A DNA stretch of 20,561 bases from a virus: positions 1-20,561 of IMG/VR virus record IMGVR_UViG_3300009003_000029, one strand, 5' to 3'. The position numbers were made by a program, and so were the translations under genes. Numbering within the stretch: position 1 is the first letter of the stretch; each line of letters starts with the position of its first letter. The notes below the pieces were generated by a model, which saw nothing but the letters and a program-made list of their open reading frames with translations, made no database searches and had not been told where the DNA came from. This document shows positions 2,238 through 18,500 of this stretch, one piece after another.

Positions 2238-2387
2238 TTATTTCAAGTCTAAAGGGTCTAGCCTACCAGACAAGATTGCAACTGCACGTTTGTAAAACAT
2301 GCAGTCTGTCTTCCCTGCCTCTTCTAAGGCTTGCTTAACGCGCTTCCAGTTTTCGAGAGTATGTTGACCGATAGTTTTATGGCTCAA
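2238..2387 (-). CDS. Small conserved-looking hypothetical protein (49 aa)
   Basis: A 49-codon ORF read by hand: a TTG start at 2387 overlapping the stop of the 224-residue gene (the TTG lies 5 bases before that TAA), ending in TAA at 2240-2238, 14 bases before the next gene. The protein has an amphipathic Lys/Glu-rich helix (LENWKRVKQALEEAGKT), then DCMFYKRAVAILSGR and DPLDLK at the end. It has no signal peptide or membrane segment. The sequence looks protein-like and I have an impression of similar short proteins in marine phages near the lysis genes, but I cannot name a function. The frame fills an otherwise unexplained 153-base gap exactly, which supports its reality. The only in-frame ATG (residue 30) would leave a 20-residue peptide, so the TTG start is the better choice. 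Confidence 0.7.
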   Translation of the reverse strand: MSHKTIGQHTLENWKRVKQALEEAGKTDCMFYKRAVAILSGRLDPLDLK

Positions 2388-3051
2388 TGATCTCAACCAG
2401 TATAGTTACCCAGTCATCTGACACGTTTAGTTGCCCCCATGCACCCCACGAATAGCTGCCTGCTGCTCCAATCGGTTGAAAGGAAACTGCTAACGACCCT
2501 GTGTTACTCCCGCTTGTTGAAGACTCTATCAAAGTCGCCCCTGAAGGAGGAAACCATCTATTTTTATTTACATTGTCACGATTCCAAAAGACGAGCTGAA
2601 GTGCTAATGAATTTGCGGAATAGTTTGAGGAAAGATTGTCATGGCTTGGAGTATTCCCCGATCCTGTAGCTCTAAGACTATCTCCTTTATACGTGACTCC
2701 ATTTGTATTTGTGAAATTATTATCCGCTCTAACCGTGAAAGCTATGGCTTGATCGAAATCTTGAAGCACATCTGTCATACGGAAAGAGGTTAATGACCCA
2801 GGATTAGGAACTCCAAAAATGCCGTAGCCTACGGTGTTAACTTGATTTCTTTCTATAACACTCACGCCGTTTCCGCTTTGAATATTTGGCTGTGAGTTAT
2901 CTGAAGATGCCACAAAGAGAAACATGTCCCCAGACTGTGAGTTTGGGAAAGACATCAAGTCTCCTTGTGTATTGACATCCCAAGTGTCAACTACTAGCCA
3001 TTGGCTTGTGCTTGATGTGATAAGTAATGGGGAGATGCCGCCTGGAATCAT
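2377..3051 (-). CDS. Beta-rich virion protein, possible fibre tip or receptor-binding protein (224 aa)
   Basis: The function is not recognised. The 224 residues are rich in Ser, Asn, Gly and aromatic residues and predict as beta-strands, with no membrane segment or catalytic motif I can see. Typical stretches are GDMFLFVASSDNSQPNI, ALQLVFWNRDNVNKNRW and YSWGAWGQLNVSDDWVTIL; this pattern (GD-hydrophobic early, a GATLIESS strand, a hydrophobic C-terminal strand) resembles beta-sandwich modules at the ends of phage fibres. It begins 9 bases after the 752-residue fibre, with GAGGT at 3062-3058 set 6 bases before ATG, a strong ribosome site that overlaps the fibre stop codon. Tight coupling to the fibre suggests a distal tip, a fibre chaperone or a capping subunit. 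It overlaps the following 49-codon gene by 11 bases. Confidence 0.6.
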   Translation of the reverse strand: MIPGGISPLLITSSTSQWLVVDTWDVNTQGDLMSFPNSQSGDMFLFVASSDNSQPNIQSGNGVSVIERNQVNTVGYGIFGVPNPGSLTSFRMTDVLQDFDQAIAFTVRADNNFTNTNGVTYKGDSLRATGSGNTPSHDNLSSNYSANSLALQLVFWNRDNVNKNRWFPPSGATLIESSTSGSNTGSLAVSFQPIGAAGSYSWGAWGQLNVSDDWVTILVEIIEP

Positions 3052-3060
3052 TGTTCTACC

Positions 3061-5319
3061 TCAAGAAAAATTGGTTGCGAGTGTGCAAATAATTGAAGGG
3101 CTTACTCCGGCCAGACGGACAACGTAACTCAAAACATCAACAGCACCAGGGGCAGCCGAAAGGGCTGGAGTAATACCTCCAGCAAAATCGTAATTGCTCC
3201 CGAATGCGAGCGTCCTGCCTCCCACTCCATCCTGACTAATAAAAATACAACCGGATTGCCCAGCGGCTAAGTTTGTCGGGTTGTCAAGTGTCCTGTTTCC
3301 GCCGAGCGTTACGCTGTAAAAATTATTTTCATTTAAATTGACCGCTATATTGGCTGCATCGGCTAATGCTGTGATACTTCCACGTTGAGCTTTAGTAAAT
3401 GTTTGATTTTCGTCTTCCTTGACTGTTGCAGCGTCAAACGCTTCGACAGTTACGCCAATATCTGAAGCAGTTAGATAGGATCCTGCACTTCCATTGCTAG
3501 CAGCCGTAATCCTTCCTTGCTGGTCTACCGTGATTGCTGCATTTGTGTAGCTTCCTGGCGTTACAGCCGTGTCGTCTAAGTTGAGCGTAATGGATCCACT
3601 AGCGTTAACAGTTGTAAGCCCTGTGCCACCAGTGAGAGTGGCTTTTGCTAATGACCCACTGCTGGTGCCTACAAGAAGCTCGCCATCTGTATAAGTCGTC
3701 TGTCCGGTTCCCCCATACGCAACTCCGACCTCAGTTCCTTGCCAAGAACCTATAGCAATCGTGCCGACACTTGTCAGGCTTGATCCGACAATGCCTGTAC
3801 CCAAGCTTGTAGCGTCTAGAACCTTTGTCTCGGCGATTCGATATTCCTTATTAAGTGCAAGGTCTAAATGTTCAGATGATCTCCAATTTTCTCTACTCTG
3901 TAACCACCTAAAGGTTTTATCTGTGGCTCCTTTAAGTGTTATTCCTCCAAGGTCTGCGGTTGTGTTTGTGGGGCTTGCCACTACGCCAAGCTCAATGTTC
4001 TTATCTTCAACCAGAAGATTCTGGGTATCCAGTGTTGTTGTTGTTCCACTGACAGTCAAATCACCTGCAATCGTGACCGAACCAGCGAAGGCTCCATCTC
4101 CGTTGTCATCAAGCTGAATATTGGGGTTGGCAGGTAACGAACCACCAAAAATTAGAGATCCATTTGAATTAATTCTAAGTTTCTCTGCTCGGCCTGCTGA
4201 AATAACTACGGTATCACTTATCGCTGTTTCGCTTGAATTGCCTCTATAGGCCCCAATGACTGTATTATTGTTTCCGCTGAAGTGGTATGCAGAATCGTGC
4301 CCTAACGCGACATTGTATTCTCCTGTTGTCGAAAGCCTTAAAGCTCCAACTCCCAATGCAGTATTATTCTCTCCTCCGATAAGATCACCTGCTGCTTTAT
4401 TGCCGACCGCTACGTTTCTAGACCCTGTTGTGCAATCAATAAGAGCCGATTCCCCGACCGAAGTATTATGAAACCCTGTTGTGTTCGCTTGCAGAGATTT
4501 AAGCCCAACAGATGTGTTACCGCTTCCTTCGGTATTGCTCTCAAGAGATTTCTTTCCGAAGGAAGAATTTCCAGTCCCAGTAGTATTGCTGCCTAAGTTT
4601 TGTACTCCTACACTTGTGTTGCTTAAAACAGAATTGCCGCCACGACTTATGTCAATATTGTTGTATGCTCCAGCAGTAATCTCGCCGTTTGAATGAATAG
4701 TTAGGCTAGGAGAAGAAGGCGCTCCAGGGCCTACGGAAACATCGCCTATGACTTCTAAGTCTCCAGGAACGCTTAAATCGCTTGTAAATTCAACCGCATT
4801 GCCCTGTGCGTTGGTTCTAAGTATTTGGCCTGCCGTGCCAGGAGTAATTGAAATGTTTGGCTGGGTTGAGTTTCCGCCAACCGCCAAAGGAGATGTTGCG
4901 TTAACGCCAACAAGAAAGCTGCCGATTTCAGCTTGCAGCTGAGAAGCATCTACTACACGCCCAGGTGATCCATTAGTAATGTCAGTTGCGCTAGCAAGCT
5001 GAACAGTGCCACTTGCGCTAGAAGTTGCTGTGTTTACTGTTATTGCAGGAGTGAATTGCGTCGAAGAATCTTGATATACAAAAAGCCTTGCCGGGGTTAC
5101 GCTTGTGTCAAGCCAAGGGTCGCCGGGGCTCGCCCCAGTAGGCGCAGTGGCGCTAACCCAAATATTGTTAATTTTTCGGACATTCCCGGCAGTATCTTTG
5201 CATGTCAGAAATGGGCCGTCAGCGTTGTAATTTACGGCAATTTCGCCTAGCCCTAGATCGCTAGCGACCGGAAGCCTTTGGGATACACCACTCTTCTTGT
5301 GAACAATATCAAGGGCCAT
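3061..5319 (-). CDS. Tail fibre with YadA-head-like repeats (752 aa)
   Basis: A receptor-binding tail fibre, probably trimeric. Residues 1-80 are the likely attachment domain (MALDIVHKKSGVSQRLP start, then GEIAVNYN and PGDPWLDTS). Residues 234-360 hold seven tandem copies of a 17-residue motif of the form N-T-S-V-G-x5-L-x3-TTG, as in left-handed beta-roll heads of YadA-type adhesins. Residues 430-580 carry blocks common in cyanophage fibres: LLVEDKNIELG, GGITLKGATDKTFRWL, SSLTSVGTI, YGGTGQTTYTDGELLVGT. The C-terminus (NFYSVTLGGNRTLDNP, QDGVGGRTLAFGS, VDVLSYVVRL) is a domain I know from the ends of phage structural proteins. No S74 self-cleaving chaperone follows. It is preceded by the window's largest gap, with two hairpins and no clear Shine-Dalgarno, and is followed by the coupled 224-residue gene. 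Confidence 0.85.
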   Translation of the reverse strand: MALDIVHKKSGVSQRLPVASDLGLGEIAVNYNADGPFLTCKDTAGNVRKINNIWVSATAPTGASPGDPWLDTSVTPARLFVYQDSSTQFTPAITVNTATSSASGTVQLASATDITNGSPGRVVDASQLQAEIGSFLVGVNATSPLAVGGNSTQPNISITPGTAGQILRTNAQGNAVEFTSDLSVPGDLEVIGDVSVGPGAPSSPSLTIHSNGEITAGAYNNIDISRGGNSVLSNTSVGVQNLGSNTTGTGNSSFGKKSLESNTEGSGNTSVGLKSLQANTTGFHNTSVGESALIDCTTGSRNVAVGNKAAGDLIGGENNTALGVGALRLSTTGEYNVALGHDSAYHFSGNNNTVIGAYRGNSSETAISDTVVISAGRAEKLRINSNGSLIFGGSLPANPNIQLDDNGDGAFAGSVTIAGDLTVSGTTTTLDTQNLLVEDKNIELGVVASPTNTTADLGGITLKGATDKTFRWLQSRENWRSSEHLDLALNKEYRIAETKVLDATSLGTGIVGSSLTSVGTIAIGSWQGTEVGVAYGGTGQTTYTDGELLVGTSSGSLAKATLTGGTGLTTVNASGSITLNLDDTAVTPGSYTNAAITVDQQGRITAASNGSAGSYLTASDIGVTVEAFDAATVKEDENQTFTKAQRGSITALADAANIAVNLNENNFYSVTLGGNRTLDNPTNLAAGQSGCIFISQDGVGGRTLAFGSNYDFAGGITPALSAAPGAVDVLSYVVRLAGVSPSIICTLATNFS
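4240..4620 (-). repeat. 17-residue (51-bp) tandem repeats in the fibre
   Basis: Residues 234-360 of the 752-residue fibre repeat with a period of 17. The first six units begin NTSVG, NSSFG, NTSVG, NTSVG, NVAVG and NTALG; a seventh of 16 residues begins NVALG, and a partial NTVIG follows. Positions 1 (Asn) and 5 (Gly) are invariant, a Leu/Ala lies near position 9, and TTG or SGN near position 13-15. The coding units have diverged at the DNA level, so this is an old protein repeat rather than a recent expansion. The pattern fits one turn of a trimeric beta-roll per unit. Confidence 0.85.
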
Positions 5320-5369: not shown

Positions 5370-6320
5370 CTACAACGAAGCATCAAACAACAGCTCTCCT
5401 AGTATTTTACCTAGGACGGCAAACGTCAACGGGAAGTTGTCCCCGCAAGCCGTTAGTGCTAATACAGCTCCGCCTGTAAGTTCCGCGTAATGCCCGACGT
5501 TCGTTGAGCTGTCACCATTACTGTTTGCGCCTTGACTCACTCCAGAAAAGTACCCTTCACAAGTAAGAGTTGTCTTGTCAATGTTTTTGACAATTGTTAA
5601 GTCACTTAATTGAGTACTGGAAGCGACGGTTGCGGGCGAAAAAATAACTGTAGCTTCAGTTTGCCCTGTAAAAACGAAACCGTAAACCCTAGAACCGCTA
5701 GGGACAGTTCCGGCACTTATAAGAGCATTGAGCTGACTACAACTTGGCTCTAAATCTCTACTTTGGTTAAATCGCAGGTCAGGACCATCAATAAAAACTA
5801 ATATCTGAGAGTCACCGCCTCTCATCAAAGCGTCCAATTGCTCACCATTTCTTAAATTGCCTGACGCCTCTTCTGTTGATTCTGAAATAACAATTCGAGC
5901 AATATTGTCATCTTTGCTTCTGAAAGCACCTAAAGAACCTCTTGGACCCCCTGGCCTTGCGATAGCGTAAATAGCTCCTGTTTCGTCTTCAAAATTTGCA
6001 CCTAACTCAGAACCAGGATCAGTAGCTCCCCAGTTTGCTTCTGAGATTTCACTGCTGTCAATAAAAACTTTGTCCGGGCTAGTGTCTGCAAATAAACCAT
6101 TGCCAAAGCCTCCAATACTATATCTATTTAAAAAGGTTTCAGTGCCCACGCCTTCAGCCGCCAAGGCACTCTCAATTGACAATATGTTTGCTTTGTCCTT
6201 AAACGCATTGATAAAATTACCGTTAGAACCAGATTCGTCAAACAAGACTGTGACATCTACAGCAGCAGGCTTGCGAGTGCGAGCCTTGCTGCCAAAAAAA
6301 GCGGGTACTGCAGTGACCAT
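5370..6320 (-). CDS. von Willebrand factor A (vWA) domain virion protein (316 aa)
   Basis: A vWA fold occupying nearly the whole protein, a metal-dependent adhesion domain. The first strand VDVTVLFDESGS carries a complete MIDAS DxSxS motif (Asp28, Ser30, Ser32). Thr100 in WGATDPGSE is a candidate second ligand. The third position, usually Asp in TDG/TDE, reads ISEST (Glu147) after the strand ARIVI. Further strands are QILVFIDGPD (172-181), SRVYGFVF, and HYAELTGGAVLAL near the C-terminus, which matches the ATGG closing motif of vWA domains. There is no signal peptide, so it presumably joins the particle during assembly. It sits 2 bases after the 1205-residue fibre and 50 bases before the repeat fibre, so a role in host adhesion, or in attaching or capping a fibre, is the natural inference. 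The fold call is fairly secure; the function is not known. Confidence 0.7.
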   Translation of the reverse strand: MVTAVPAFFGSKARTRKPAAVDVTVLFDESGSNGNFINAFKDKANILSIESALAAEGVGTETFLNRYSIGGFGNGLFADTSPDKVFIDSSEISEANWGATDPGSELGANFEDETGAIYAIARPGGPRGSLGAFRSKDDNIARIVISESTEEASGNLRNGEQLDALMRGGDSQILVFIDGPDLRFNQSRDLEPSCSQLNALISAGTVPSGSRVYGFVFTGQTEATVIFSPATVASSTQLSDLTIVKNIDKTTLTCEGYFSGVSQGANSNGDSSTNVGHYAELTGGAVLALTACGDNFPLTFAVLGKILGELLFDASL

Positions 6321-6322
6321 AA

Positions 6323-9300
6323 TTAAGCAACCATAGAGGCGGTGAAAACTATGTTGGTTGAAGTTGCAACATAATATCCAATCAACACGTTCCCCGACAA
6401 TCCTTCTGAATTAGTTATTGGGCTTACAAAAGTGTTTACTACTCCAGACCAATTGCTCCCATTGATTGAAGTAAATGGCCTGTTTACTCCAGCCGCTCTA
6501 GTAACCAAAATAAACCCAGAAGCCCCAGGTACAGGATTTAGCGGTGTTCCTAAATCAATCGCAACCGTGTTTGCATTCTGCACAAAAGTAAAGTTTGTTG
6601 AATTTGCAAAGTTGTCTTGACCGCTTACCCAAACTGCAGGCGTTAGCTTAATTACGTCCTCTGGGTTAACTGGCGGGATTTGCGCCGTTGGCACAAGACC
6701 TGTTGCATCCAGGCTTGCAAAACCGTTAGCGACACCTCTTGCGCTGCTTAGTGACGATGGAGTTACAGTTCTGGTTGCATCACTTAGCGCAAGCGTTTCA
6801 GCACCAGTAGCAAGCTCAACAATACCTTTGGCCGCAGTAGAAGCATTTTGAATCAGGCCAGCATCATCTAGGTCGGGTATCCTCGCCACTGGAATTTTGG
6901 CGGTCGAGTCCAGATCGCAGAGACCATCTGCCACTCCACGTACAGAGCCAAGATTTTTTGCTGTTAATGCGTCAACATCGTTTGCATTTGACGGGTTGCT
7001 AATTCCTGCAGCATCTGAGTCAGTTGCAAGTTTGACAATACCTCTTTGTGTTTCTGTCGCTTCAGGCAGTACGCCGTCTGCAAATGTGACGGAACCTTCA
7101 ACTGTTCCGTTAATCAGTACTTCGTTAGTCAACTCTGTACGCTGAGAAGACTGTAAAAGTTGTGTAACGCTTAAAGTTTCAAAATCAGTAGGAGTTGCCG
7201 GAAAATCAGGGTCTCCGGCGAGAGCCCCCAAACCAGCGATTTCACTGTTTACAGTTTGGTTAGTACCAAGGTCCGTAATTACGTTGCCTTGAACTAGAAG
7301 GCCATCTTCGTTGAATCCAGTGTTGTAGCAGCGACCACCCAGCAGGTTTACCGCAAAATAATCAATTTTATTTTGCTGAGACAACGGTGTTGCTTGATAC
7401 TTTGGTAACGCTTTTGTGTAATTGCCGTATCCAACAAACTCATAGGCGTGAGCAAACGCTCTAATAATACTTGGCCGGTTAAACTCTAGTGGCCAGTTTG
7501 TCCTAGAGTTGATTTTTCCAGAAGGTACAGGGCTGAGAGGATCAGCAGGATTCCAGTCTCTTAATACTTCTGTGTCTTGTTGCTCAAGAACAGTCCCCGA
7601 AAGTGTTCCGTTCTCTTGCAATCCAACATCTTGAGCCGTGTACCCAATTGCTCTCATCAAAGAACTTACGCCTTGAAAATCAGTGCTACTCCTTACTTGA
7701 TCAAGAATCAAGCTGTTTGTTGATTGATTTATTCCAAGGTCAGTGCTCGTAGGACTGTTTGACAGGTCGTTATCTAAAATCAACAAAGGCCCTGAAGATG
7801 TTCTTAAAAGTTCAACACCTCTTTCGTCAGGGAGCATTGGCAAGCTTGCTTCAAAATTTTCAGCGGAGAACGTGCTAAATCTTTTGTTCCTCTTGCTCCG
7901 AAATACTCTATTGTTTCTTGATACAGGAGTCCCTACTCTGTAAAAAGTAGAAGGATTGAAAGAAGACGCGCTGTCTCCAGGACGAATAACAATTTTATAA
8001 ACATCGCTGCCAAAAGAGTTGTCTGAGTCTTTTGAGGTTGAAACAATAAAAACTTCATTTGGATTGTTTGTGGGGTCTAATTGTTGGTTGAGGGTGCTAC
8101 GGTTCCCTAAGCGTAAAATGTAATTTCCTACGGGTCTGCGAGTTGTTGCACTACCAGAAACAACCAATGAATATTCACGTTCTTCGGGCTTCCTAGTGTC
8201 AGAAAGCCTTCTGATGTAGACACGGTTGCCTTCTAAGGTTTGGTTTGAAATGGTTGAGATGTTGTTTACGCTAGGGTCGTCAATACCTCCGTCAACAACA
8301 ATTATCTGAGTAGGATTTGCCGAATCAAAAGGCACAGAGGCCAACTTAGCTCGTACATCAATTGCTTGGCTTGCTGAAGCCCCAGGCCCCTCGGAGCGAC
8401 TGCTATTTTCAATCCAAATATAGTCTCCTTCTTTCAAGCTATACCCGTTGTTAGCAAAAGCTGTCTCTGGGTCAAAAGCAACTTGTAAATTAATAGCGCC
8501 TGTTGCACTGTCGTATCCCAAGCTAGATACGTTACCAATTCCGATTCTGCGGATGTTGCTCCCATCTGTTTTTACTTTTAGAGGTCTACGGATACGAAGT
8601 GCTTGAAATCCTTTGTCTTGGGCAAACGCGCCACCTGTTGTGCTAATACCTCTAAAACCACTGCTAAGTAAAGCTGTGTTGCCAAAATTACTATTACTAT
8701 TGGTAATAGTGCATTCTCCACCTGAAGCCGTCCAGTGATGCACGTTTGAGCCGATAACAAAACAGCTGACCTCTTGCGTTAAGGCGCTATTTGTGACCTT
8801 GAAGCCGAAACTTCTATAATCCACTTCATAGCATCCAGTGGAAGGAGAAAAGTTCCCAGAGATTCGCGACCTTACATCGTTACTATCTGCGTTTATGTAC
8901 TCGTTGTATCCACTGCAAGTCTGCCAAGAGCCTCCTGTGTAAATCTGCCAAGCATTCATGTCACGCTGAAGCGCAACAATTGTGAACTGGGCTACGACCA
9001 TTGAGCGTAGTCCTGAAACACCATCACTTCCGTCAAGATACATGCCGCACATGCCGTAGTCGGAGCGCAAGCTGCAATTAAAGACATATCCAGAACTGCC
9101 TTTAACAGAATCTGTCGCAGCTGAAACCTGATTGTCAGGGTATTCGGTGGTGATTTGTGTTTCGCCTGGATTTATAACTTCAACGTCAGAAGATGAAAGA
9201 TTGAAAGCGGTTGCGATTTTCTGGTAATAAGCGGTTAAATCAGACTGGGAACAGAAAGAAAAGGCTTGAAGCAGGTGATGAGAAGATTGATAGGTAAGAG

Positions 9301-9940
9301 AATCTTTAAAAGTAAAATTAAAAAAGAACGAACCCCCAGTGGTTTTGAATAAACTACCTCTGTCGGTTACTGGATTGCCGCCTGCACTTGGTACGGACCT
9401 GGGACGTATGACACTTTTACGAAGGTCAGCACCAATAATTGAAACTCCTCTTGGGAGAATAATTCCCATGTCTTCAGAGTTAAAAGCTCTTAGGTCTTCT
9501 TCGGTAGGCTCGTAATCATTAGGCCACTGGCTCACAGTTAGACCCGTGCTCGGAGTGTTGTCAACAACGTATTCGCTGGCAGCGACTTTGATTAGAACAC
9601 GGTCATACAAATCATTCCCAACTCCGCTTTGAACGGACAAGCGAGCTGCCTCGATTAGCCCTCTATTGAGGGTTTTGAATGGTGCTGACTCCGAGTAGCC
9701 GCAAGTAAGCTGTTGATTGCTTAGAGGAGGAGTTACCGTATTGTCTGCGATACCGGCGACAAATTTGTCAGAACCAATCTCATGGTTAACGTAAAGCGTT
9801 GTCGTAGACGTTGAGTCCACTTCCCCGCCAGCAAGACGCAACACCGCGCTGGTGACTTCGCCAGCCTGAGTGCGGAACGTGTTTTGACTAATGTCAATAT
9901 TGTCAATAGCTCCAGGCTGACCCGGTGTAACGATTGCCAT
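6323..9940 (-). CDS. Large tail fibre/tailspike, beta-helix type (1205 aa)
   Basis: A host-recognition or structural fibre. The N-terminal 180 residues (IDISQNTFRT, LYVNHEIGSD, PFKTLNRGLIEAARLSV, DRVLIKVAASEY, GIILPRGVSIIGADLRKSVI) match, by recognition, the start of large structural proteins of T4-like cyanophages often annotated VrlC or structural protein. Residues about 160-440, rich in short hydrophobic strands with Asn/Gly turns (SYVFNCSLRS-like, CTITNSNSNFGN), suggest a right-handed beta-helix. The middle (450-900) has Ig-like and loop-rich stretches. Residues 966-1089 contain two copies of a GIV-(K/E)-LAT repeat seen in lambda Stf-like and T4-like fibres. The last 106 residues form a beta-rich tip domain ending TASMVA. 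No pectate-lyase or glycosidase catalytic motif is evident. It follows the 360-residue gene across a 10-codon mini-ORF and is coupled to the vWA gene. Confidence 0.8.
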   Translation of the reverse strand: MAIVTPGQPGAIDNIDISQNTFRTQAGEVTSAVLRLAGGEVDSTSTTTLYVNHEIGSDKFVAGIADNTVTPPLSNQQLTCGYSESAPFKTLNRGLIEAARLSVQSGVGNDLYDRVLIKVAASEYVVDNTPSTGLTVSQWPNDYEPTEEDLRAFNSEDMGIILPRGVSIIGADLRKSVIRPRSVPSAGGNPVTDRGSLFKTTGGSFFFNFTFKDSLTYQSSHHLLQAFSFCSQSDLTAYYQKIATAFNLSSSDVEVINPGETQITTEYPDNQVSAATDSVKGSSGYVFNCSLRSDYGMCGMYLDGSDGVSGLRSMVVAQFTIVALQRDMNAWQIYTGGSWQTCSGYNEYINADSNDVRSRISGNFSPSTGCYEVDYRSFGFKVTNSALTQEVSCFVIGSNVHHWTASGGECTITNSNSNFGNTALLSSGFRGISTTGGAFAQDKGFQALRIRRPLKVKTDGSNIRRIGIGNVSSLGYDSATGAINLQVAFDPETAFANNGYSLKEGDYIWIENSSRSEGPGASASQAIDVRAKLASVPFDSANPTQIIVVDGGIDDPSVNNISTISNQTLEGNRVYIRRLSDTRKPEEREYSLVVSGSATTRRPVGNYILRLGNRSTLNQQLDPTNNPNEVFIVSTSKDSDNSFGSDVYKIVIRPGDSASSFNPSTFYRVGTPVSRNNRVFRSKRNKRFSTFSAENFEASLPMLPDERGVELLRTSSGPLLILDNDLSNSPTSTDLGINQSTNSLILDQVRSSTDFQGVSSLMRAIGYTAQDVGLQENGTLSGTVLEQQDTEVLRDWNPADPLSPVPSGKINSRTNWPLEFNRPSIIRAFAHAYEFVGYGNYTKALPKYQATPLSQQNKIDYFAVNLLGGRCYNTGFNEDGLLVQGNVITDLGTNQTVNSEIAGLGALAGDPDFPATPTDFETLSVTQLLQSSQRTELTNEVLINGTVEGSVTFADGVLPEATETQRGIVKLATDSDAAGISNPSNANDVDALTAKNLGSVRGVADGLCDLDSTAKIPVARIPDLDDAGLIQNASTAAKGIVELATGAETLALSDATRTVTPSSLSSARGVANGFASLDATGLVPTAQIPPVNPEDVIKLTPAVWVSGQDNFANSTNFTFVQNANTVAIDLGTPLNPVPGASGFILVTRAAGVNRPFTSINGSNWSGVVNTFVSPITNSEGLSGNVLIGYYVATSTNIVFTASMVA
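6674..7045 (-). repeat. Two GIV(K/E)LAT fibre repeats
   Basis: Residues 966-1022 and 1038-1089 of the 1205-residue fibre are two diverged copies of one module. Each starts (R/K)GIV(K/E)LAT, passes through DALTAKNLGSVRGVA or TVTPSSLSSARGVA, and ends LDSTAKIPVARIP or LDATGLVPTAQIP. These modules recur in tail fibres of many phages and are exchange points for fibre recombination. Confidence 0.8.
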
Positions 9941-9973
9941 TTAACCGAATGCTCTTTGTCCCACTTTAGTCAT
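9941..9973 (-). other. Ten-codon mini-ORF bridging two tail genes
   Basis: The gap between the 360- and 1205-residue genes is filled exactly by a reading frame coding MTKVGQRAFG. Its ATG (9973-9971) shares a base with the upstream stop TAA (9975-9973), and its TAA (9943-9941) directly abuts the fibre ATG at 9940. The fibre ATG has no good Shine-Dalgarno of its own. Translation of the mini-ORF could carry ribosomes to the fibre start (translational coupling). It may also be chance; the peptide itself is not recognisable. Confidence 0.3.
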
Positions 9974-11055
9974 TATACTCCCACTTTTAATGCAATTTCG
10001 CCAGATGTCGCGAAGTTGGCCGAACCAACGATCACATCCGTAGCCCTGACGTTCACCGCAATGTTCGTTATCAAAATATTTGTAGCGTAATAAAGCCCAC
10101 CTCTAGCCAAAACACTGCACGTATCGCTGACCTTCCGCTGCATTAACCAAAATTCCGCTTCAGCTTTCGCGCCTCGCTCCGTTAATTGCAGAAGCTGAAG
10201 CAAGTAGCTTGGGTCTACGGGCCTGTCTCCGCTAGCGGACGAATGTCCTGCCTCTCCAATTTGGAAATCAAATTTCCCACCACCGGTAATGATACTTTTT
10301 ATATTTTCGCCAAATTTCTCGCCAACCTGAGTGGTATCAACAGCCGCACCGTCTAGTTCTAAAGACCACTCAGCTAACTCGCATTGCAACACCCAAGGGA
10401 AACCGTTTACCGCACTCCTTGGCGTAAGGTCTGCGTCATCATACTCAGCAGTGCCTGCGGCAGGGCTCTGATAAGAGGGCGCAAAGTCGCAAATACTTTC
10501 AAGCGTCACCTCATCTCTAACGTCGCTGAATCTGTAGTCTCTGACGCCTGAAACGCATTCAGTTAGAGCATTGTTGTAATCCTGAGTACCTGCCGCAGCA
10601 ATTAACAAAACGTTAAAATCGTACTGAGCCAAGTTAACTTTGTTGATAGACCCACCGTTAACAGCAGAGCAATAATCTGTATAAAAGCTGAGCCTGTTTA
10701 GGGAATCTTTATAAACAAAATACTCCGCACTTTTAGCTCCAACGCCACAGTAAAAGTTATCTGAATCTTCTCCTACACCTCTTTTGTAGAAAAAATCATC
10801 GTTGTCTGCTATGTGAGAACGATTAGGGCCTGTTTCAAGAAATCCTCCTGCATACATTGCAGAGCCGTTTGAGCACTGACCTGATAAAGGAAGCCCTTCC
10901 TGGGAGAAGAGATACACCTCATCCCCTGACCAGAAATCTTGATTACTTAAAACAATAGCGTCAATATCGGCCCTGAGTACTGAAGAGCTTACAACAATAG
11001 GCAGCGGCGCTTCTCTTCTTAGTCGAACAATTCCATCAATTCCAAGTACCGCCAT
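9973..11055 (-). CDS. Tail protein with tail-tube-like C-terminal domain (360 aa)
   Basis: A virion structural protein of 360 residues. The N-terminal part (RLRREAPLPIVVSSSVLRAD, SNQDFWSGDEVYLFS, QEGLPLSG) resembles a module I associate with marine siphophage tails; the middle is cysteine-containing and loop-rich. From about residue 220 the sequence looks like a tail-tube beta-barrel: LQCELAEWSLELDGAAVDTT, VGEKFGENIKSIITGGGKFD, AEAEFWLMQRK, YYATNILITNIAVN and GEIALKV. Seven Cys are spread along the chain. It starts 4 bases after the 132-residue gene with GGAGGA at 11071-11066, 10 bases before ATG. It may be a specialised tube, terminator or tip-ring subunit rather than the main tube; I would want a structure prediction to choose. 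Confidence 0.65.
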   Translation of the reverse strand: MAVLGIDGIVRLRREAPLPIVVSSSVLRADIDAIVLSNQDFWSGDEVYLFSQEGLPLSGQCSNGSAMYAGGFLETGPNRSHIADNDDFFYKRGVGEDSDNFYCGVGAKSAEYFVYKDSLNRLSFYTDYCSAVNGGSINKVNLAQYDFNVLLIAAAGTQDYNNALTECVSGVRDYRFSDVRDEVTLESICDFAPSYQSPAAGTAEYDDADLTPRSAVNGFPWVLQCELAEWSLELDGAAVDTTQVGEKFGENIKSIITGGGKFDFQIGEAGHSSASGDRPVDPSYLLQLLQLTERGAKAEAEFWLMQRKVSDTCSVLARGGLYYATNILITNIAVNVRATDVIVGSANFATSGEIALKVGV

Positions 11056-11059
11056 GGCA

Positions 11060-11458
11060 TTAGAATCCTCCAGTTAAAGGTCCAGAAACCTGGAAGCCAA
11101 CGCTGCAAGAGGTGACCGCACCAACAGAAACGCTGGGGGAAATACTTGTCAAAACTGCAGAACCGCTTAACTGGCTGCCGCCAGCGGAATCCAAAACAAG
11201 CTCAATGTTGCTCAAGGGTTCTGAGGAATTATTCAAAACATCGTTGAAAAGCGCTGTTGCGCTTGCCTCGGCTGGGTCGTACATGATTTCAGCAGTGCCC
11301 GTTGCTCCTCTTAAGCCGGAAACGTAAGAACGATCAAAGACTCCAATCCCGGTAGTCTCCAAACTGTCTTTTGAAATGTTCAACGACCAAGAGCGGACGC
11401 GAGCAACCACCGTCCCCCGCCACCTGAGTTGTCCGTTACTGCCAGTGCGAACAGCCAT
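11060..11458 (-). CDS. Tail-tube-like protein (132 aa)
   Basis: A short virion protein with the pattern of compact tail-tube/TP901-type proteins: a turn GSNGQLRWRG at the N-terminus, VRSWSLNISKDSLETT, a loop with RSYVSGLRGATGTAEIMYD, ALFNDVLNNSS, and paired C-terminal strands (GSAVLTSISPSVSVG, CSVGFQVSG). Those features, and the length, fit a single beta-barrel that polymerises into rings. It ends 4 bases before the 360-residue gene, which carries a similar domain, so the two look paired. If one of these is the major tail tube, its location downstream of the tape measure and tip genes is unusual for siphoviruses. A distal tail or adaptor ring is an equally fair reading. The start follows AAAGG at moderate spacing. 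Confidence 0.6.
   Translation of the reverse strand: MAVRTGSNGQLRWRGTVVARVRSWSLNISKDSLETTGIGVFDRSYVSGLRGATGTAEIMYDPAEASATALFNDVLNNSSEPLSNIELVLDSAGGSQLSGSAVLTSISPSVSVGAVTSCSVGFQVSGPLTGGF
11066..11071 (-). promoter_or_regulatory. Strong ribosome-binding site of the 360-aa tail gene
   Basis: GGAGGA in the mRNA sense, 10 bases before the ATG at 11055 and inside the end of the preceding 132-residue gene. It supports the chosen start and suggests relatively high translation of this subunit compared with neighbours that lack a clear site. Confidence 0.6.
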
Positions 11459-11494: not shown

Positions 11495-11875
11495 TCAACC
11501 ATCCAATGTTCCAATTAATTTCACGGTGACTCTTGATCGATTATTGAAAACTGATTGGACCTGAGGAGTCTCTTGCCAACGCCAAGTAACATAGCTTGGG
11601 ATTTGAGCTTGCAAGGCAGAGTTCATTCCATTGAAGATCGACGATGGCAGGGTCAAGGCAGTGCCTGAACCGTAAGCAGAATTAAAACAAGCCAAAATCG
11701 TTGTTAGCTCTGCATCGTCAGCCGAAAACTCTAAGTCCAAAACAGCGTCGAATGCTTTGCTTCCGTAAAGCCTTGTCGTACCAGCGCCGCTGATGCTGTT
11801 AAAACGCTTAGTGGGATAATCGCCAACCGTATAGGTGCGCTGAGTAGGTATAAGTGATGGAAAAGAAACTGTCAT
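11495..11875 (-). CDS. Conserved minor tail protein, unknown exact role (126 aa)
   Basis: A compact 126-residue protein with the look of a tail-tip component: SLIPTQRTYTVGDYP, a core FNSISGAGTTRLYGSKAFDA, the strand VLDLEFSADDAELTTIL, ALTLPSSIFNGMN and C-terminal RSRVTVKLIGTLDG. I recall similar sequences beside tip genes of marine siphophages, but cannot tie it to a characterised family; distal-tail (Dit), gpM-like or tail-terminator functions are all possible. The ATG at 11875 overlaps the tip-protein stop by one base (TAATG), and GGAGG lies 13 bases upstream. The next gene follows after 36 bases. Confidence 0.5.
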   Translation of the reverse strand: MTVSFPSLIPTQRTYTVGDYPTKRFNSISGAGTTRLYGSKAFDAVLDLEFSADDAELTTILACFNSAYGSGTALTLPSSIFNGMNSALQAQIPSYVTWRWQETPQVQSVFNNRSRVTVKLIGTLDG

Positions 11876-14800
11876 TAGCCGATCAAGCCCTCCAAAAGCC
11901 AGTTGCTGTCATTGTCAAAACCATCGACGACCAGGCTTTCATCGTTACTGTTGGTTGGAAAGTGAATAGCCTCAACCTCAATGTTACCGTCTTCGTCAAA
12001 AGAAAGAGATTGAGTCTTGTATGTTTGGACGTTAGTGCTTCCACTGTTTATGCAGAACACTGAATCAGAAAAACTTGTTGAGCCGTTTTGTACAAGCATT
12101 GTTGTCTCAGTGATTTGTGTTGAAGCCCCATCCCAAAGCAGAACAGAATAATTGCCATCAGCGAGTGGCGGCCAAGAAGTGATTGTTCCATCGGATGCGA
12201 TGGCACCGTTTTGAGGCTGGTCAAAAGTTGTTGTCTCAAGCCCTAGCTTGAATACGCCACCAATATCGAGATTGGCCTCGCTAGGGGTAGTCTTGAATTT
12301 AATTGAATGAGTTACAAGTCTGCGGAATCTGCATTCCCATTTGCCTCTGTCTATTGCATGTCTTTCGCTTGTCGCGAAATCGCTAATATCAATCGACTCT
12401 ATAGGCGCAAGGTTTTCGACCCCAGCCTCTCGAACTATGACTTCTCTGACAACAGGAAATAGCCCCCTGGAGAAATCTCCAGTCTCGTTTCTCTCCTCTC
12501 GCCATTTTACGGAAATTCTTGGCGGTATACGATCCGCCGCGTCAAAATAATTTAACTCAAAAGAGCCATCAATTATATTGCCTGACGTGAAAAGTTGAGT
12601 TATTGTTTCTGGCCCTTCAAAATTAGCTACGGGCTGCAATGCAAACTTACCGTTTCTTATAACAAGATCCAGGAGGAAGTCAGCGGCTCTTTGGGCTCCC
12701 CATGTTCTAAGATTTTGCTTTTCAGTAACAGCACCGTCAAAGAAATACTTTCTTGAATAATTCCAGTCAGCAGCGGAATCAAAACTCGCTTTATCGATCT
12801 GTTGGGGGCTCATTATTGAACCAACGCCGTACCTGTCGTTTGTAAAGAGATCGTATAGCACGTCAGGGAACCTGCTGGTGGACCTAACGCCTTTATTCAC
12901 GTAAGCACTAAACTGCTGAAGACTTTTTACCTCTTCACTGCTTTTAATATTCAATCCCACGATTGCTGACGCGAAATATCTTGGAACTATGGCACTGCTT
13001 GAAACATTGTTTATGTAAACAATTTCGTGCTCAGGTTGAGAGGCGCTGCTTGTGACTTCATTGTAAATAAAAGCCTCCGCTATTTTTGCGTAAGAGTCCA
13101 CGTAATATGGGCTATCTTCTCTGCTTCCGGCTAGCGTAAGGCCTCCTTTTGGATAGAATACCGATACACTAAAACTGTCAACATTTCTAGGAATAATTTC
13201 GCCTGAGAATTGCAGTACCACCCCACCTTCGTTAATTGTTTGAATGCTTTGCACCGAGTAATCCAAAACAGCTAGCTGGCCAGCAGCTGCACCTGTGCGT
13301 ATTTCCCAGGACGATAAAGGCTCGATCCGTATCTCGTATCGATTCTCAAAAGTAAAATCTAGCTTAAGATAGTTGTAAACATCGACGCCAGTAGCACTTC
13401 TCGCTCCAAAAATAGTGCTTATTTCGGTAAACTCTGAATTGCTTGCAGCTACTCGATAAGAAATGCGAAAAAAGCTATACCTTAACTCTGGGCCTGTATA
13501 GGTGCCGCTAGCAAAATTTACAGGCGAAGCGCCATCAGCGTCCTCACCGTTAAAATTGTCACATGCCTCGTCGTCTATCTGAGAGTAAGTTTTAGTATCT
13601 CTAAAATTACAAATGCCTGAAACGTTTAACTGCAAGCGACTTCTAAAGCCTATTTCTATCATCCTAGAGCCACGCTCAGTCACGATATTGGCTATAGCGC
13701 AACGCATAATATGAGCAGTGCTGCTTGCTATTCGGGCAGAGCTAGTATCAGCGTCACTTAGGGAGACAAAATCAACTGCGCCTTGACGAACTACCGTAAA
13801 CTCCGCCGTCATATCCCTGCCCCCACCCGTAGGAGTCAGGTCAGCATCAGAAATGAATGGCTGCAAGCTGCGGTCAGAACAAATTGCCAAGGCGCTGCCA
13901 ATTTTATAAAGCTGACCAATGTTTATTAATTCGTCGTACTGCTTTTGACGCCCCGCTACAGCACCCGCGACATCTCCTACAGTCGCTTCTCCCAAGCCTC
14001 CTCCGCGAGTAAAACCATTTGGGTAATCATCCAGGGCGCATGAGCTTAGAAGCCTATAGCTAAGCTTTTCACCCGTATTTACTAAAACACTATTTCCAGA
14101 TGTCGGAACGCCATTCTTTGCGTACAAACAAGATTTGCCAGCGAAGATTGTGTTTTGCTTATCGCGATTCGCCAACTCTTGCCAGTCTGACTTGCAATTT
14201 ACTTCGTTATCAGTTCTTACAGTAAACTGTCTGCCTGGCCTGAATACAGGATTAACCCTGTAACCCAGATTGTTGCCAATGAATCCATATACCCCTATTG
14301 AGGTTTGCGTAGAAGGCTTTGAGGTGAAACAAAAAGCAGGTTGATAACCTCCGTTTGCATTTTTCACCTGAAAGACATCATCTGCCCCGTCGTTTTCTGA
14401 GTTTGCTTCGTCACTGGGAGGCGTTACACCAGAAATGTAATCTCCTGAAGTAATCCTTCCGCCAGTGTTGTTGTAATAAGCAGATATTCTTCCTGTAGTA
14501 GAGAGACCTAAGTCGTATCCATTAAGAAGGTTGTTGCCGATAGCAAACTGCCCTGGGTCAATAATCATTCCTTCAAACCTATCTCCAGTATCGCTCGACT
14601 CTCCGACCAAGAAAATAGCTCTTAGCAGCTGCCCGCCACCAATACTATAAATTTGAGACCACAGCAGGTTGGTATTTACTCTAACCCCTCCGTAATATTT
14701 GCCATCAATTAACTGACGATTGGCATAAACGATAGGAATGGTGCTTCCAATCTCAACAACGTTTTGAACAGTGTCAAAACCGCTTTTGGCTGTAAATTGA

Positions 14801-15096
14801 TCCCCCCTAACGATGGTCTGCCCGTCTACATTTCTTGTCCTTACGTCAGGAGCTTTTCTTACTTGAGGCTTAGGCGCTAGCAGTGCCGACGCAGCAGATA
14901 GCACAAGACCAATCGCAAGGTTGATCAGAATAATAGTGAATGGCTCTAAGGCAACAAGCTCGCCAGGTCTTAGCTTGCTACGGAGAATCGCTTGACGACA
15001 AAACCACACATATTGCTCTTGAGACATCCCAGTGATGCCCATAATCTCCCGATCCTGCGGGAGGAGCATAATTCGATTTTTGTTAGGGCTCAGCAT
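11875..15096 (-). CDS. gpJ-like tail tip/host-specificity protein (1073 aa)
   Basis: Central protein of the siphoviral tail tip, the hub that closes the tube and often contacts the receptor. Residues 53-74 form one strongly hydrophobic segment ending LLAPKP, a feature of gpI/gpJ-type N-termini that may insert into or contact the host membrane. A diagnostic stretch DVLYDLFTNDRYGVG near 743-757, with the preceding SAIVGLNIKSSEEVK and VNKGVRS, matches the conserved part of the lambda J family. The central portion carries scattered Cys (for example KSCLYAK, MRCAIAN, GICNFRD). The C-terminal 150 residues (HAIDRGKWECRFRRLVTHS, FKLGLETTT) are beta-rich. The start is TAATG-coupled to the 155-residue gene. 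Length is close to lambda J (1132). No C-terminal fibronectin repeats are obvious, so receptor binding may be delegated to the separate fibres. Confidence 0.8.
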   Translation of the reverse strand: MLSPNKNRIMLLPQDREIMGITGMSQEQYVWFCRQAILRSKLRPGELVALEPFTIILINLAIGLVLSAASALLAPKPQVRKAPDVRTRNVDGQTIVRGDQFTAKSGFDTVQNVVEIGSTIPIVYANRQLIDGKYYGGVRVNTNLLWSQIYSIGGGQLLRAIFLVGESSDTGDRFEGMIIDPGQFAIGNNLLNGYDLGLSTTGRISAYYNNTGGRITSGDYISGVTPPSDEANSENDGADDVFQVKNANGGYQPAFCFTSKPSTQTSIGVYGFIGNNLGYRVNPVFRPGRQFTVRTDNEVNCKSDWQELANRDKQNTIFAGKSCLYAKNGVPTSGNSVLVNTGEKLSYRLLSSCALDDYPNGFTRGGGLGEATVGDVAGAVAGRQKQYDELINIGQLYKIGSALAICSDRSLQPFISDADLTPTGGGRDMTAEFTVVRQGAVDFVSLSDADTSSARIASSTAHIMRCAIANIVTERGSRMIEIGFRSRLQLNVSGICNFRDTKTYSQIDDEACDNFNGEDADGASPVNFASGTYTGPELRYSFFRISYRVAASNSEFTEISTIFGARSATGVDVYNYLKLDFTFENRYEIRIEPLSSWEIRTGAAAGQLAVLDYSVQSIQTINEGGVVLQFSGEIIPRNVDSFSVSVFYPKGGLTLAGSREDSPYYVDSYAKIAEAFIYNEVTSSASQPEHEIVYINNVSSSAIVPRYFASAIVGLNIKSSEEVKSLQQFSAYVNKGVRSTSRFPDVLYDLFTNDRYGVGSIMSPQQIDKASFDSAADWNYSRKYFFDGAVTEKQNLRTWGAQRAADFLLDLVIRNGKFALQPVANFEGPETITQLFTSGNIIDGSFELNYFDAADRIPPRISVKWREERNETGDFSRGLFPVVREVIVREAGVENLAPIESIDISDFATSERHAIDRGKWECRFRRLVTHSIKFKTTPSEANLDIGGVFKLGLETTTFDQPQNGAIASDGTITSWPPLADGNYSVLLWDGASTQITETTMLVQNGSTSFSDSVFCINSGSTNVQTYKTQSLSFDEDGNIEVEAIHFPTNSNDESLVVDGFDNDSNWLLEGLIG

Positions 15097-15563
15097 TATC
15101 TCAATGAAATGTTTCCAGTGGAGGGAAGCTCGCCCACACTGACTTGAGTGAGTACGCGCCTTGGAATGTTGGCTTCAATTGCGTCCAAAGGATTCCCTAG
15201 CCGTACCTGCAGCCTACTCGTATCATGCTCAAAACCAAGCACCGCGTAAAGCTCCTCGCTGTACCTATTGGTTTCAACCAACGTATCAGGATCAAGCCAT
15301 ACAGTGCGTATCTCTGCCAGCCAGCGTTCATCAGATGCTGTTTGGAAAATGTTTAGATCCAATTGATTGACAGCAAACACAACTGCCGCCGAAATGTTGG
15401 CAGCTTGCAGGTCAAGCGTTCCACCGCTAAAGCCAAACCCTGCAAAAACATAACTTGTACCTAAATAAGTACGTGATTCGCCTTGGAAAAAATTCTGGAA
15501 GGCATAGCCAGTGTTTGAGCCTTGAAAATCAACCAGCTTCAGATAAGTGCCAATCGCAAGCAT
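15096..15563 (-). CDS. Minor tail protein, DUF1833/gpL-like (155 aa)
   Basis: A 155-residue tail-tip protein between tape measure and gpJ-like genes. It has two mixed strands early (YLGTSYVFAGFGFSGGTL), a motif ERWLAEIRTVWLDPDTL, YSEELYAVLGFEHD, a short charged RLQVRLGNPLDAIEANIP and RRVLTQVSVGELP. Motifs such as LRLG-x-PxDA and PRR-x-L are typical of the DUF1833/gpL class that forms part of the distal tail. The ATG at 15563 shares one base with the tape-measure stop (TGATG), and its stop shares a base with the next ATG (TAATG), so the three genes are probably translated as a coupled set. The class assignment is by recognition only; minor tail protein is more secure than a named homologue. 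Confidence 0.65.
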   Translation of the reverse strand: MLAIGTYLKLVDFQGSNTGYAFQNFFQGESRTYLGTSYVFAGFGFSGGTLDLQAANISAAVVFAVNQLDLNIFQTASDERWLAEIRTVWLDPDTLVETNRYSEELYAVLGFEHDTSRLQVRLGNPLDAIEANIPRRVLTQVSVGELPSTGNISLR

Positions 15564-18500
15564 CAGCCAAGCCCCACTTTGGACCTTGATGCAGGCCGCT
15601 GCCTTAAGTCAGAAAATACCTGGCTACGGGCCTTGCGAGAAGCGGATTCGGAAAGCGCAAGTCCTTGCTCAACTGTTAGATATTCCACATTGTTGATCAC
15701 CGTGGTATCTAGCTTAACCCTGATCGGCTCTGACATTTCAGTGGCTTGACGTTCTGCAGCCTTACGCTCAATCACTCGCTCCATTGACATAGAGCTTGAT
15801 GATACAGCCGCTTGACTTTGAGCAATGGCTTGCTGAGTTGAGTAGTTGTTGTTGATGTAATTACGACTTTCGGCCATTCCGTCCTGACCAAGATCGCCAG
15901 AGCCGCCAGCAAGGCCCAATGGGCTGCCGCCAGAAATAGCAGCACGACTTGCCGAAAAGACATCGTTTGGAATAATGTTTCCGTTGCCCGAAGGGACCAT
16001 AAGCTCCATCCCACGTTCGCCCACGATATATGGCTTATTTGCGCTAACTGGGCCGCCGTTAGCCCTAAACGCTCCAGCAAAAGGCGTACCACCGCCAAAG
16101 TCTCCGAGTGAGTTACCTGTAATACTTGGTGCGCTGGGGTTAAACCCACCACCACCACCACCACCACCACCACCACTGCTGCCACCAAGAAGGCCCAAAG
16201 CAGCATCTAAAACCGCTATTGTCACCATCTTCGCAATAATCTGCCCCGCCATATCCAAGAAATAACTACCAACACTCTTGAAAAAATCAGCCAATGCCTG
16301 CTTCGCACTTGTGGCACCAGTAATTGCATTGGTGAACGACTGAGAGAATGCACTGCCAATAGCGTTTGCTGCGCCAGTGATTTGATTGATTGGATTTACC
16401 AGATCTTCCAGTTCTTTTTTCAAACTGCGAATGTTTTGGCTCAACCCTTCCGTCAACGTTGGATCTATTCTTTGGCGGAACAGATCGGTTTGCTGTTCAG
16501 CGTTTGGATCCCCTGCGTCTTTCCTTGACTGCCTGAATCTTTCAATTCTCTGCTCGTTTGTCACCAAGCCAAGCTGATCGCGCAAGCTAAACAGCTCGTC
16601 TTCGGACGCTTTTGCAATGGCTTCTTTCTCAAACCTGTATCGCTGTGCTTCTTTCGTAAGCTCTGCAGCATATTCAATTGAAAGGCGAGCGTCGTCGTTT
16701 TGTTTAGTTGCAATAGCTTCTGCTACCAATGCGCCCTGTTCTTTTTGCCCCTCGGCAGCCTTAAGGGCTTCGAGATATTTCAGTTCAACCTGTGCAGCTT
16801 GTTCGGCAAAGTCAATAGAAATTCTTTGGTTGTTTAACTGATTTACCCTTGACCTGTTGTTTTTGTTTTGAGCTTCGCCAATATCTATCTCGTTATCCAG
16901 CCTCGCTTTTGTAGCGGCAATGAGTTTGCCTTCATTTATGATTGAATCAAGCAAAGACTTGCGCACTTTTTCTGCCTTGCCGCCGCCGCCGCCGCCGCCG
17001 CCGGTATCAGTGCCGGTAGGAGAAGCGAAGTCAGTTAGACCTTTAGCGGCTTCTGGAGCACTAGGGTACTTTTCAATTAAGGTTTTATAGTTCAGTCGAA
17101 GTCTTGCTTGAGCTGCCTCGTCTGCTTTTAGCCTTGATGTCAAGTCTTCTGGGACTGCTACACCAGCGAGAGGAGGCGCACTTCCCCCCATGGCCCGCTC
17201 GCCTCCATCTGATTGTGATGCCTTAAACTCTTTAATACTTTTCTTTGTTTTCGCGAGCCTAGCTTCGACAATATCAAGATTCTTGACAATATCCTTAAAG
17301 GTTGATCTCAGCGTTTCTTTCGTTGCAGCCGTTCCACCGATTGACCTGAAGAAAACTTCACCTTGAGGTTTTGTGCCAGAAGCGTCAAGGTCAGCTTTTG
17401 CTTGCTTAATTCTATTGAAGTAAGATATAACCAGCTCTGCGCCAACAATGGCAAAGCTTATTACGATTGGCGCTGCTAAGGATGCAGCTAAAGTTTTCAC
17501 TGTCGTTCCAAACCTGGCCAGCTTTGTCGCGGCAAGAGACGCCTGCTGAGTGGTTTGTCTGAACCCAGTTCTTATTAATGCGAACATAAGTTTTAGTGGC
17601 CCACTTAAAGCAACAAACGCTTTTAGTGCAAAATTCACGGCGACAAGCTTTGCCGCGAAAGATGCAATAGTCAATATCGCACCTCTGTTTTGAATAATAA
17701 AACGCATCCCTTCTCCAACAGCCTTCGCCATAACCACCAGGCTTGGGCCAATATCAGTAATAAATTCCAAAAACGCTTCCTGAAACTCAGCACCGATTGG
17801 CTGAAGAGCCTTACCTATCTCAAGCCGCATTTTGTCGTATGCAACCGTCAGTCTTGCTCCAGCTGACTCGGAAGACCCGGCAATCTTTTTAGCCAATTCG
17901 CCGTATTCACCACCCAGTTGAACCAAGAACTTCATCAGGTCATTCAGGCCCACCTCGCCTTTTTGCAAGGCTTTTGTCAGCTCTGGGCCGGTCCTGCCTG
18001 ACGCTTCAGCAATTTTGTTAAATGTGCCAGGCAGTCTTTCTGCAATTTGATTGATCTCTTCTGCACTGACTTTGCCCTTCGAGAAAATCTGAACGAGCGC
18101 AGTTACGGCTCCTTCAACCTGCTCTGCACCGCCACCCGTAGCGATAATTGCAGAGTTAATGTTCTTGAACGCAAGCTCTGCATCAGCAATGCCACCGCCA
18201 GCACCTTTTACTGCTGCTGTAAGTCGAGTGATCCCTCTGATAGCAACTTCTTGTGGAATGTTTAATTCTTTTGTGACATCAGCAGCGGCTTGCAGTGCTT
18301 GGTTGTAATTACTTGCGTCACCTGCAATACCATTCAACGCAATTTTGAGTTTCTCAATGCTCGCCGCATACTCAGCAAACCCACCAAGCTGCTGCCTGAG
18401 CTGACCTACCTGAGCGCCAAGTGCAGCACCAGCAAAAGACCCGCCAACACCACCAACTGCGCCACCAATTGCGCCACCCAGGAACCCTTCAGGTCCACCG

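Follow-up and report, generated by a model that had tools for sequence, protein, structure and literature searches.

A vWA-fold protein, predicted from the tail module of a probable cyanophage, as a candidate adhesin of the main tail fibre

Results

A 316-residue protein between two tail fibre genes

The DNA analysed here (hereafter the window) is a virus record of 20,561 bases with its tail module on the minus strand (Table 1). From its size and sequence, we read the longest of the listed ORFs as a tape measure. The ORF on which this study focuses starts with ATG and encodes a protein of 316 residues, and it lies, as the first-pass annotation had it, between two fibre-like genes, the main tail fibre gene fib1 upstream and the second fibre-like gene fib2 downstream. 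For the 360-aa gene (g360), there was no Pfam or PHROGs match at E <= 1. The PHROGs matches of the 224-aa gene that follows fib2 are at chance level (E 0.15 and above), and its product is perhaps another host-contact protein. Besides the full-profile match of the endolysin-like ORF, separate parts of this ORF also match PHROGs endolysin and peptidase families.

The J-like protein matched five records in the phage collection, all of them Synechococcus phages (S-CBS1, S-CBS3, and S-LBS1), with 18-22% of its length covered, and fib1 is matched by 460 phage records (tblastn) named Synechococcus, Cyanophage, Prochlorococcus, or Marine. From the matches of both proteins, the host is likely to be a cyanobacterium.

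Table 1. Genes and predicted features of the window (positions in the window)
Feature	Positions	Strand	Basis
Tape-measure-like ORF	15563-20353	minus	
J-like tail protein	11875-15096	minus	
Minor-tail-like protein	11495-11875	minus	
Major-tail-like protein	11060-11458	minus	
360-aa gene (g360), no family	9973-11055	minus	
fib1, tail fibre, 1205 aa, directly upstream of the vWA gene	6323-9940	minus	PHROGs tail fiber families, best E 2.9e-97
fib1C, C-terminal 115 residues of fib1; domain co-occurring with the vWA gene in the examined loci	6326-6670	minus	Linkage tables
Gene of the predicted vWA-fold protein, 316 aa	5370-6320	minus	ORF; structure model with vWA matches; profile similarity to 58 vWA sequences
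Codons 1-21, putative docking peptide MVTAVPAFFGSKARTRKPAAV	6258-6320	minus	Start common to distant homologues and L061
DESGS, residues 28-32, predicted MIDAS DxSxS	6225-6239	minus	D28, S30, S32 invariant in 13/13 homologues
Thr149, candidate MIDAS Thr (GGT-motif position)	5874-5876	minus	hhalign register; T in 10/10 close, D in 3/3 distant homologues
Asp178, candidate MIDAS Asp (TDG-motif position); ends model strand 173-178	5787-5789	minus	hhalign register; D in 10/10 close, H in 3/3 distant homologues
LTGG, residues 281-284, right before model strand 285-288	5469-5480	minus	Alignment, model
fib2, second fibre-like gene, 752 aa, downstream of the vWA gene	3061-5319	minus	PHROGs virion structural and tail fiber families
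224-aa gene after fib2	2377-3051	minus	
Endolysin-like ORF, 387 aa	509-1672	minus	One PHROGs endolysin family, full profile, E 1.5e-138

A family without a name in the reference databases

Eight loci with homologues came from two IMG/VR scans, one with the protein itself and one with its first alignment, and further homologues were found by HMM search of loci fetched via g360 (present in 28 loci) and via the J-like gene (76 loci, from the best 80 of 176 matches). Since the latter scan covers the best 80 of 176 matches, the linkage counts given below describe a sample. The resulting alignment, A3, holds 13 different sequences, of which ten are close to the window protein (67-100% identity) and three are distant (28-30%; L053, L109, and L074). 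In two of the distant loci, the place of fib2 is taken by two shorter ORFs, both with fibre-like N-terminal starts (L053:9534-11050 and L109:6511-8027).

None of the 13 homologues matched a model suggestive of vWA in Pfam, PHROGs, or NCBIfam at E <= 10; three models reached E 0.06-0.15 in these searches, all with unrelated names and each matched by a single member. PF13519 and PF00092 each matched 0 of 32 related phage records, so both models miss the family. Among PDB sequences, neither the window protein nor A3 found a match, and L053 gave a single match, to a cadherin (E 0.1); YfbK of Escherichia coli, used as a yardstick, gave three. Searches of cultured phages by tblastn returned no relatives of the window protein at E up to 10 and none of L053 at E up to 1; matches of L074 to 37 Lactococcus records (E 0.2-0.8), located in tape-measure genes, were taken as chance. 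Cyanobacterial genomes likewise yielded no relatives, neither in a set of 291 nor in a set of 3, with a profile that recovers 19 of 19 known phage records, and none of the 61 stretches that fit a pattern in a contig set of 84,980 species was confirmed as a relative.

Predicted structure points to a vWA fold

With 13 homologues as input, the best AlphaFold2 model reached pLDDT 69.1 and pTM 0.78 (model m33eaec14446d), the other four having pLDDT of 63, 62, 47, and 44, i.e., below 50 in two of the five; a model obtained from five close homologues alone had pLDDT 30 and was unusable. Strands and helices alternate in the best model, the last helix spanning residues 300-310, and residues 1-13 as well as several loops fall below pLDDT 50. 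Foldseek retrieved 25 PDB chains at E <= 0.001, with low TM-scores of 0.26-0.34 on the query. These entries, all of which we take to be vWA-bearing, are of integrin, complement, collagen VI, TEM8/CMG2, TRAP, PTMP1, Rpn10, and calcium-channel proteins. VIA-align, which served as a second look at Foldseek's own list, gave Z 11.4 over 181 residues at 3.2 A with an integrin alphaV/beta8 entry, Z 10.9 over 183 residues at 3.7 A with the integrin alphaM I domain, and Z 11.0 with TFIIH subunits, and several of the top matches in a viral structure library carry vWA names. Counting against this reading of the fold, the model has a strand at residues 140-147, immediately before T149, where the canonical vWA domain has a helix. 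Collectively, the Rossmann-like beta/alpha model, the vWA-bearing best matches of Foldseek and VIA-align, and, with mixed outcomes, the profile comparison described below support the vWA fold that had been proposed from the sequence.

For the profile comparison, vWA sequences were collected from cyanobacterial genomes, nine via PF25106, 29 via PF00092 (out of 30 loci, L226 being left out), and 20 further ones; the first two groups form a set of 38 and all three a set of 58. Against the 58 sequences, A3 scored 43.0 in hhalign (Prob 83, E 8.8e-6), compared with 20.1 for the best of 60 column shuffles, and it still scored 21.8 after removal of the first 37 residues, a value reached by 0 of 60 shuffles (best, 19.7). 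Against the 38 sequences, the score was 34.8 (Prob 40); none of the 100 column shuffles exceeded 19.5, and reversing the alignment gave 14.8. The part beyond residue 37 reached 21.1, compared with at most 20.3 in 100 shuffles. Ten other gene families of the window attained at most 23.5 against the 38-sequence profile, versus 34.8 for the vWA-fold family; the unrelated family J, however, scored 26.5 against the latter's own profile, which counts against the similarity. The 20 further sequences on their own gave 36.2 for the full family, with 0 of 60 shuffles reaching this value, and offered no support outside the DxSxS region, 36 of 60 shuffles reaching the score of the part beyond residue 37. 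For the 29 PF00092 sequences, 1 of 100 shuffles reached the full score, and profile support after residue 37 came exclusively from the sets in which these 29 are contained.

A probably canonical metal site

The first-pass annotation had described a modified MIDAS made up of the DxSxS motif (D28, S30, and S32), a candidate Thr100, and Glu147 in place of the usual Asp, together with a closing LTGG motif. The motifs stand: all 13 homologues retain D28, S30, and S32, down to 28-30% identity, and LTGG is present in nine of the ten close homologues, the tenth (L004) having LTSG and the three distant ones TNG. Because DxSxS is invariant across this range of identity and 0 of 60 shuffles match the profile score, the motif and the similarity to vWA sequences are more than chance. 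The modification itself, in contrast, does not hold as described, since the residues named for it are not conserved, position 100 being Thr in just three of the ten close homologues (V, N, or E in the others) and position 147 being Glu in four and Gln in six of them, and since the better-scoring alignments point to Thr149 and Asp178 instead. Another candidate for the MIDAS Thr, Thr114, was ruled out by the alignments to T149 and by the presence of Ala in the distant homologues.

The set D28-S30-S32-T149-D178 is invariant in the ten close homologues. In alpha2delta-1, T331 and D363 are given as 32 residues apart (PMC6231325), a spacing which the 29 residues between T149 and D178 fit. Given the alignment register, the invariance, the model strand that ends at D178, and the fitting spacing, we predict that the site is probably a canonical MIDAS formed by these five residues. 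In the three distant homologues, DxSxS is kept, column 148 holds Thr or Ser, and columns 149 and 178 hold Asp and His, respectively; thus, part of the family may possess an altered metal site. Taken alone, the distant sequences gave other hhalign alignments of low probability (Prob 2-14).

An alternative register, which places E111 at the Thr and T149 at the Asp of the site, would imply that the MIDAS is altered and that the beta-4 Asp was lost in this clade, whatever the role of the protein. It was suggested when the nine PF25106-type sequences were used on their own, by weak alignments (Prob 2-3) that pair residues of about 142-149 with strand beta-4, and it agrees with the model strand at 140-147, with the invariance of E111 and R142 in all 13 homologues, and with the Asp of the distant three at column 149. 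The higher-scoring alignments to the 38 and 58 sequences, however, pair T149 with GGT and D178 with TDG, as does the part after residue 37 when aligned to the 29 PF00092 sequences. In one setting with these 29, the T149/D178 register came second (24.0) to an alignment of 8 columns that places residues 172-179 elsewhere (27.6). Block tests led us to demote the E111/T149 register: against the 58-sequence profile, residues 122-230 alone scored 21.3, which 0 of 60 shuffles reached, whereas residues 84-170 scored 13.3, reached by 3 of 60. When the 20 further sequences were used by themselves, shuffles reached the scores of the two blocks in 11 of 60 and 42 of 60 cases, respectively. We therefore regard the altered register as doubtful and retain the canonical site in what follows.

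An N-terminal peptide links the protein to a fibre domain

The family shares an N-terminal motif, M-x-x-x-[VL]-P-[AG]-[FW]-F-G-x-K-A (with D for G in L024), which recurs in the distant homologues and in one locus, L061, where the same peptide precedes a different body that belongs to no family (L061:12342-13034). Within the stretch of this body that was searched, there is no DxSxS. The L061 body reads somewhat like a repeat or propeller protein, and the frames of both the peptide gene and the upstream fib1 are broken in the contig. In 109 loci, a relaxed version of the motif occurs, among ORFs of at least 60 codons, only in the vWA-fold family and in L061. Its DNA pattern was found in 19 stretches of IMG/VR, 18 of them on known contigs (including that of L061) and one in a new homologue cut by the contig end.

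Two nucleotides separate the fib1 stop codon from the ATG of the vWA gene, and the association extends to the fibre domain encoded there. When fib1 sequences ending inside a locus were grouped by length and last 25 residues, a gene with the anchor peptide followed fib1 in 10 of 10 groups with fib1C and in 0 of 7 groups without it; L061 does not enter this count, given its broken fib1 frame, although it shows both a match to fib1C and an anchor gene. In the examined loci, the vWA gene occurs only after fibres that carry the fib1C domain. This linkage could reflect inheritance in one clade. The comparison of L074 and L069, whose fib1 N-termini are similarly distant (37-39% identity) but which differ in both fib1C and the anchor gene, argues for a module.

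The same arrangement bears on two other roles. First, the protein might connect the two fibres structurally in the tail tip; its vWA domain would then bind fib2 or some other phage protein and make no contact with the host. The vWA gene does lie between fib1 and fib2 in those examined loci that hold all three, and vWA domains are generally protein binders; however, L058 and L069 have a fib2-like gene after fib1 and no vWA gene between them, so that such a link is not needed in general, and we consider it unlikely. Second, vWA proteins serve many functions both inside and outside cells, and the product might not belong to the virion but be an effector, secreted or placed on the cell surface, that acts on the infected cell and, for example, blocks superinfection. 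A gene situated inside the tail module, 2 nt behind a fibre gene and linked to a fibre domain, makes this very improbable.

Evolution of the tail module

Across related contigs, the vWA gene and fib2 have nearly the same dN/dS (0.26 and 0.27). The values are 0.10 for fib1, 0.08 for g360 and g132, and 0.07 for g126 and J (n = 10 each), 0.03 for g155 (n = 8), 0.06 for g91 (n = 5), and, with n = 3 each, 0.06 for the endolysin and 0.07 for a dCTP deaminase-like gene. The highest value among the compared genes belongs to the 224-aa gene (0.49, n = 5), and the tape-measure-like ORF, with identity among relatives down to 50%, reaches 0.38 (n = 8). Since both exceed the vWA gene, a high dN/dS does not by itself point to host contact. 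The fibre-associated role proposed by the first-pass annotation thus receives indirect support, from the linkage to fib1C and from fast evolution, though the tape-measure-like ORF evolves faster.

Within the vWA-fold protein, the "top" loops, in classes assigned by hand without coordinates, have an entropy of 0.93 and a dN/dS of 0.35, compared with 0.44 and 0.19 for strands and helices, and the other loops come close to the top loops (entropy 0.70 and 0.87; dN/dS 0.30 and 0.35). The anchor peptide has a dN/dS of 0.35 in the close clade, a value based on few changes, and constraint at the protein level is not unusually strong. Synonymous divergence over the first 20 codons is 0.14 in the vWA gene (6261-6320), 0.15 in fib1 (9881-9940), and 0.47 in fib2, in which the dip is absent. 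The low value at the anchor was considered as a sign of recombination, an explanation that we dropped because the start of fib1 dips equally.

These rates also bear on the possibility that the protein is an assembly factor, a chaperone of fib1 that is absent from the finished virion. There are models for such a function: T4 gp38 is described as helping fibre folding and assembly (PMC6851490), and MoxR-vWA pairs have been proposed to act in virion assembly of jumbo phages in a report that also cites such a pair as required for tail assembly of an archaeal virus (PMC7824862). The position of the vWA gene directly after a fibre gene would suit this function. Nevertheless, the gene evolves like fib2 and not like fib1, the different body borne by the same peptide in L061 better fits an exposed part, and none of the 10 related contigs searched, all of which may be fragments, contains a match to the MoxR-type AAA+ models PF07728 and PF07726. 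An assembly factor is improbable in our judgement.

Discussion

We propose that the vWA-fold protein is a stand-alone adhesin, clipped onto the tip of the main tail fibre and holding the host through a metal ion at a canonical MIDAS, a reading for which we judge the chances to be evenly balanced. In this mechanism, the N-terminal peptide (MxxxVPAFFGxKA) would dock on the C-terminal domain of fib1, the vWA body would face outward from the fibre tip, and the metal ion at D28, S30, S32, T149, and D178 would mediate the hold on a protein at the surface of the host cell, which is probably cyanobacterial. The analysis shows the predicted fold, the conservation of DxSxS, the linkage to fib1C in the examined loci, the recurrence of the peptide on another body in L061, and fast evolution; a place in the virion, attachment to fib1, a bound metal ion, and the identities of ligand and host are inferred. 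The working mode that most likely applies is drawn, by analogy, from gp38 of phage S16.

A broader possibility, which we advance only tentatively and hold to be less probable than not, is that these phages use a plug-in adhesin system, in which one C-terminal fibre domain accepts a short docking peptide and the bodies attached to it are exchanged, vWA in most cases and another body in L061, with integrin-type holding of the host through a metal ion and a metal site that changed between T149/D178 and D149/H178 within the family. A short docking peptide could then explain how adhesin bodies are exchanged. If the adhesin proposal is true, an integrin-type fold joins the known kinds of detachable phage receptor-binding proteins, and the Mg/Mn dependence of adsorption becomes testable for such phages. 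A hypothesis of function is also gained for a protein family that is unnamed in Pfam, PHROGs, and NCBIfam.

Comparison with known systems

The predicted fold resembles those of integrin I and I-like (vWA) domains (Z 10.9-11.4), and in the favoured register the putative metal site has the five residues of an integrin-type MIDAS, DxSxS, Thr, and Asp, as given for alpha2delta-1 (PMC6231325). Identity to these domains is 8-18% over the aligned residues, and the phage protein departs from them by its long insertions, by an N-terminal peptide that is short and phage-specific, and by the linkage of its gene to a fibre.

In its suggested mode of action, the protein is comparable to gp38 of T2/S16-type phages, which is described as a separate fibre-end protein that attaches through its N-terminal part and turns a variable part towards the receptor (PMC6851490, PMC12892980). 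In S16, according to the former source, an N-terminal domain with conserved tryptophans attaches gp38 to the tip of the gp37 fibre, and the distal loops are variable. Our protein likewise is encoded by a separate gene beside a fibre gene and has a shared N-terminal peptide. The fold of gp38, however, is a polyglycine sandwich, whereas the vWA-fold protein has no run of more than two Gly in its sequence, and its N-terminal segment, the docking of which is putative, is much shorter. Thus, it may work like gp38, yet it is not a member of the gp38 family.

The openly licensed literature, as far as its text was accessible to our searches, yielded no account of a comparable tail protein with a stand-alone vWA domain, and the systems nearest to it differ in various respects. 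Bd0875 of Bdellovibrio is described as a MIDAS adhesin for which the point mutants D66A and E213A, both affecting the site, failed to bring back wild-type function (PMC11003981). It provides an example of a vWA/MIDAS adhesin acting where a bacterium contacts another bacterium; unlike the phage protein, it is a cellular protein that has a lipobox and an additional small beta domain. The VWA-domain protein gp185 of the Vi01-like phage Sajous1, retrieved once in a proteomic table, is classed by its authors among proteins of DNA/RNA processes and not with the tail (PMC10892097). For contractile injection systems, vWA is named among the domains associated with tail fibres (PMC12923769). The closest described phage precedent that we found for a fibre role is gp164 of Bacillus phage 0305phi8-36, a baseplate/fibre-region protein of a contractile tail reported to contain a vWA domain in its central portion (PMC2147016), whereas the vWA-fold protein of the window stands alone.
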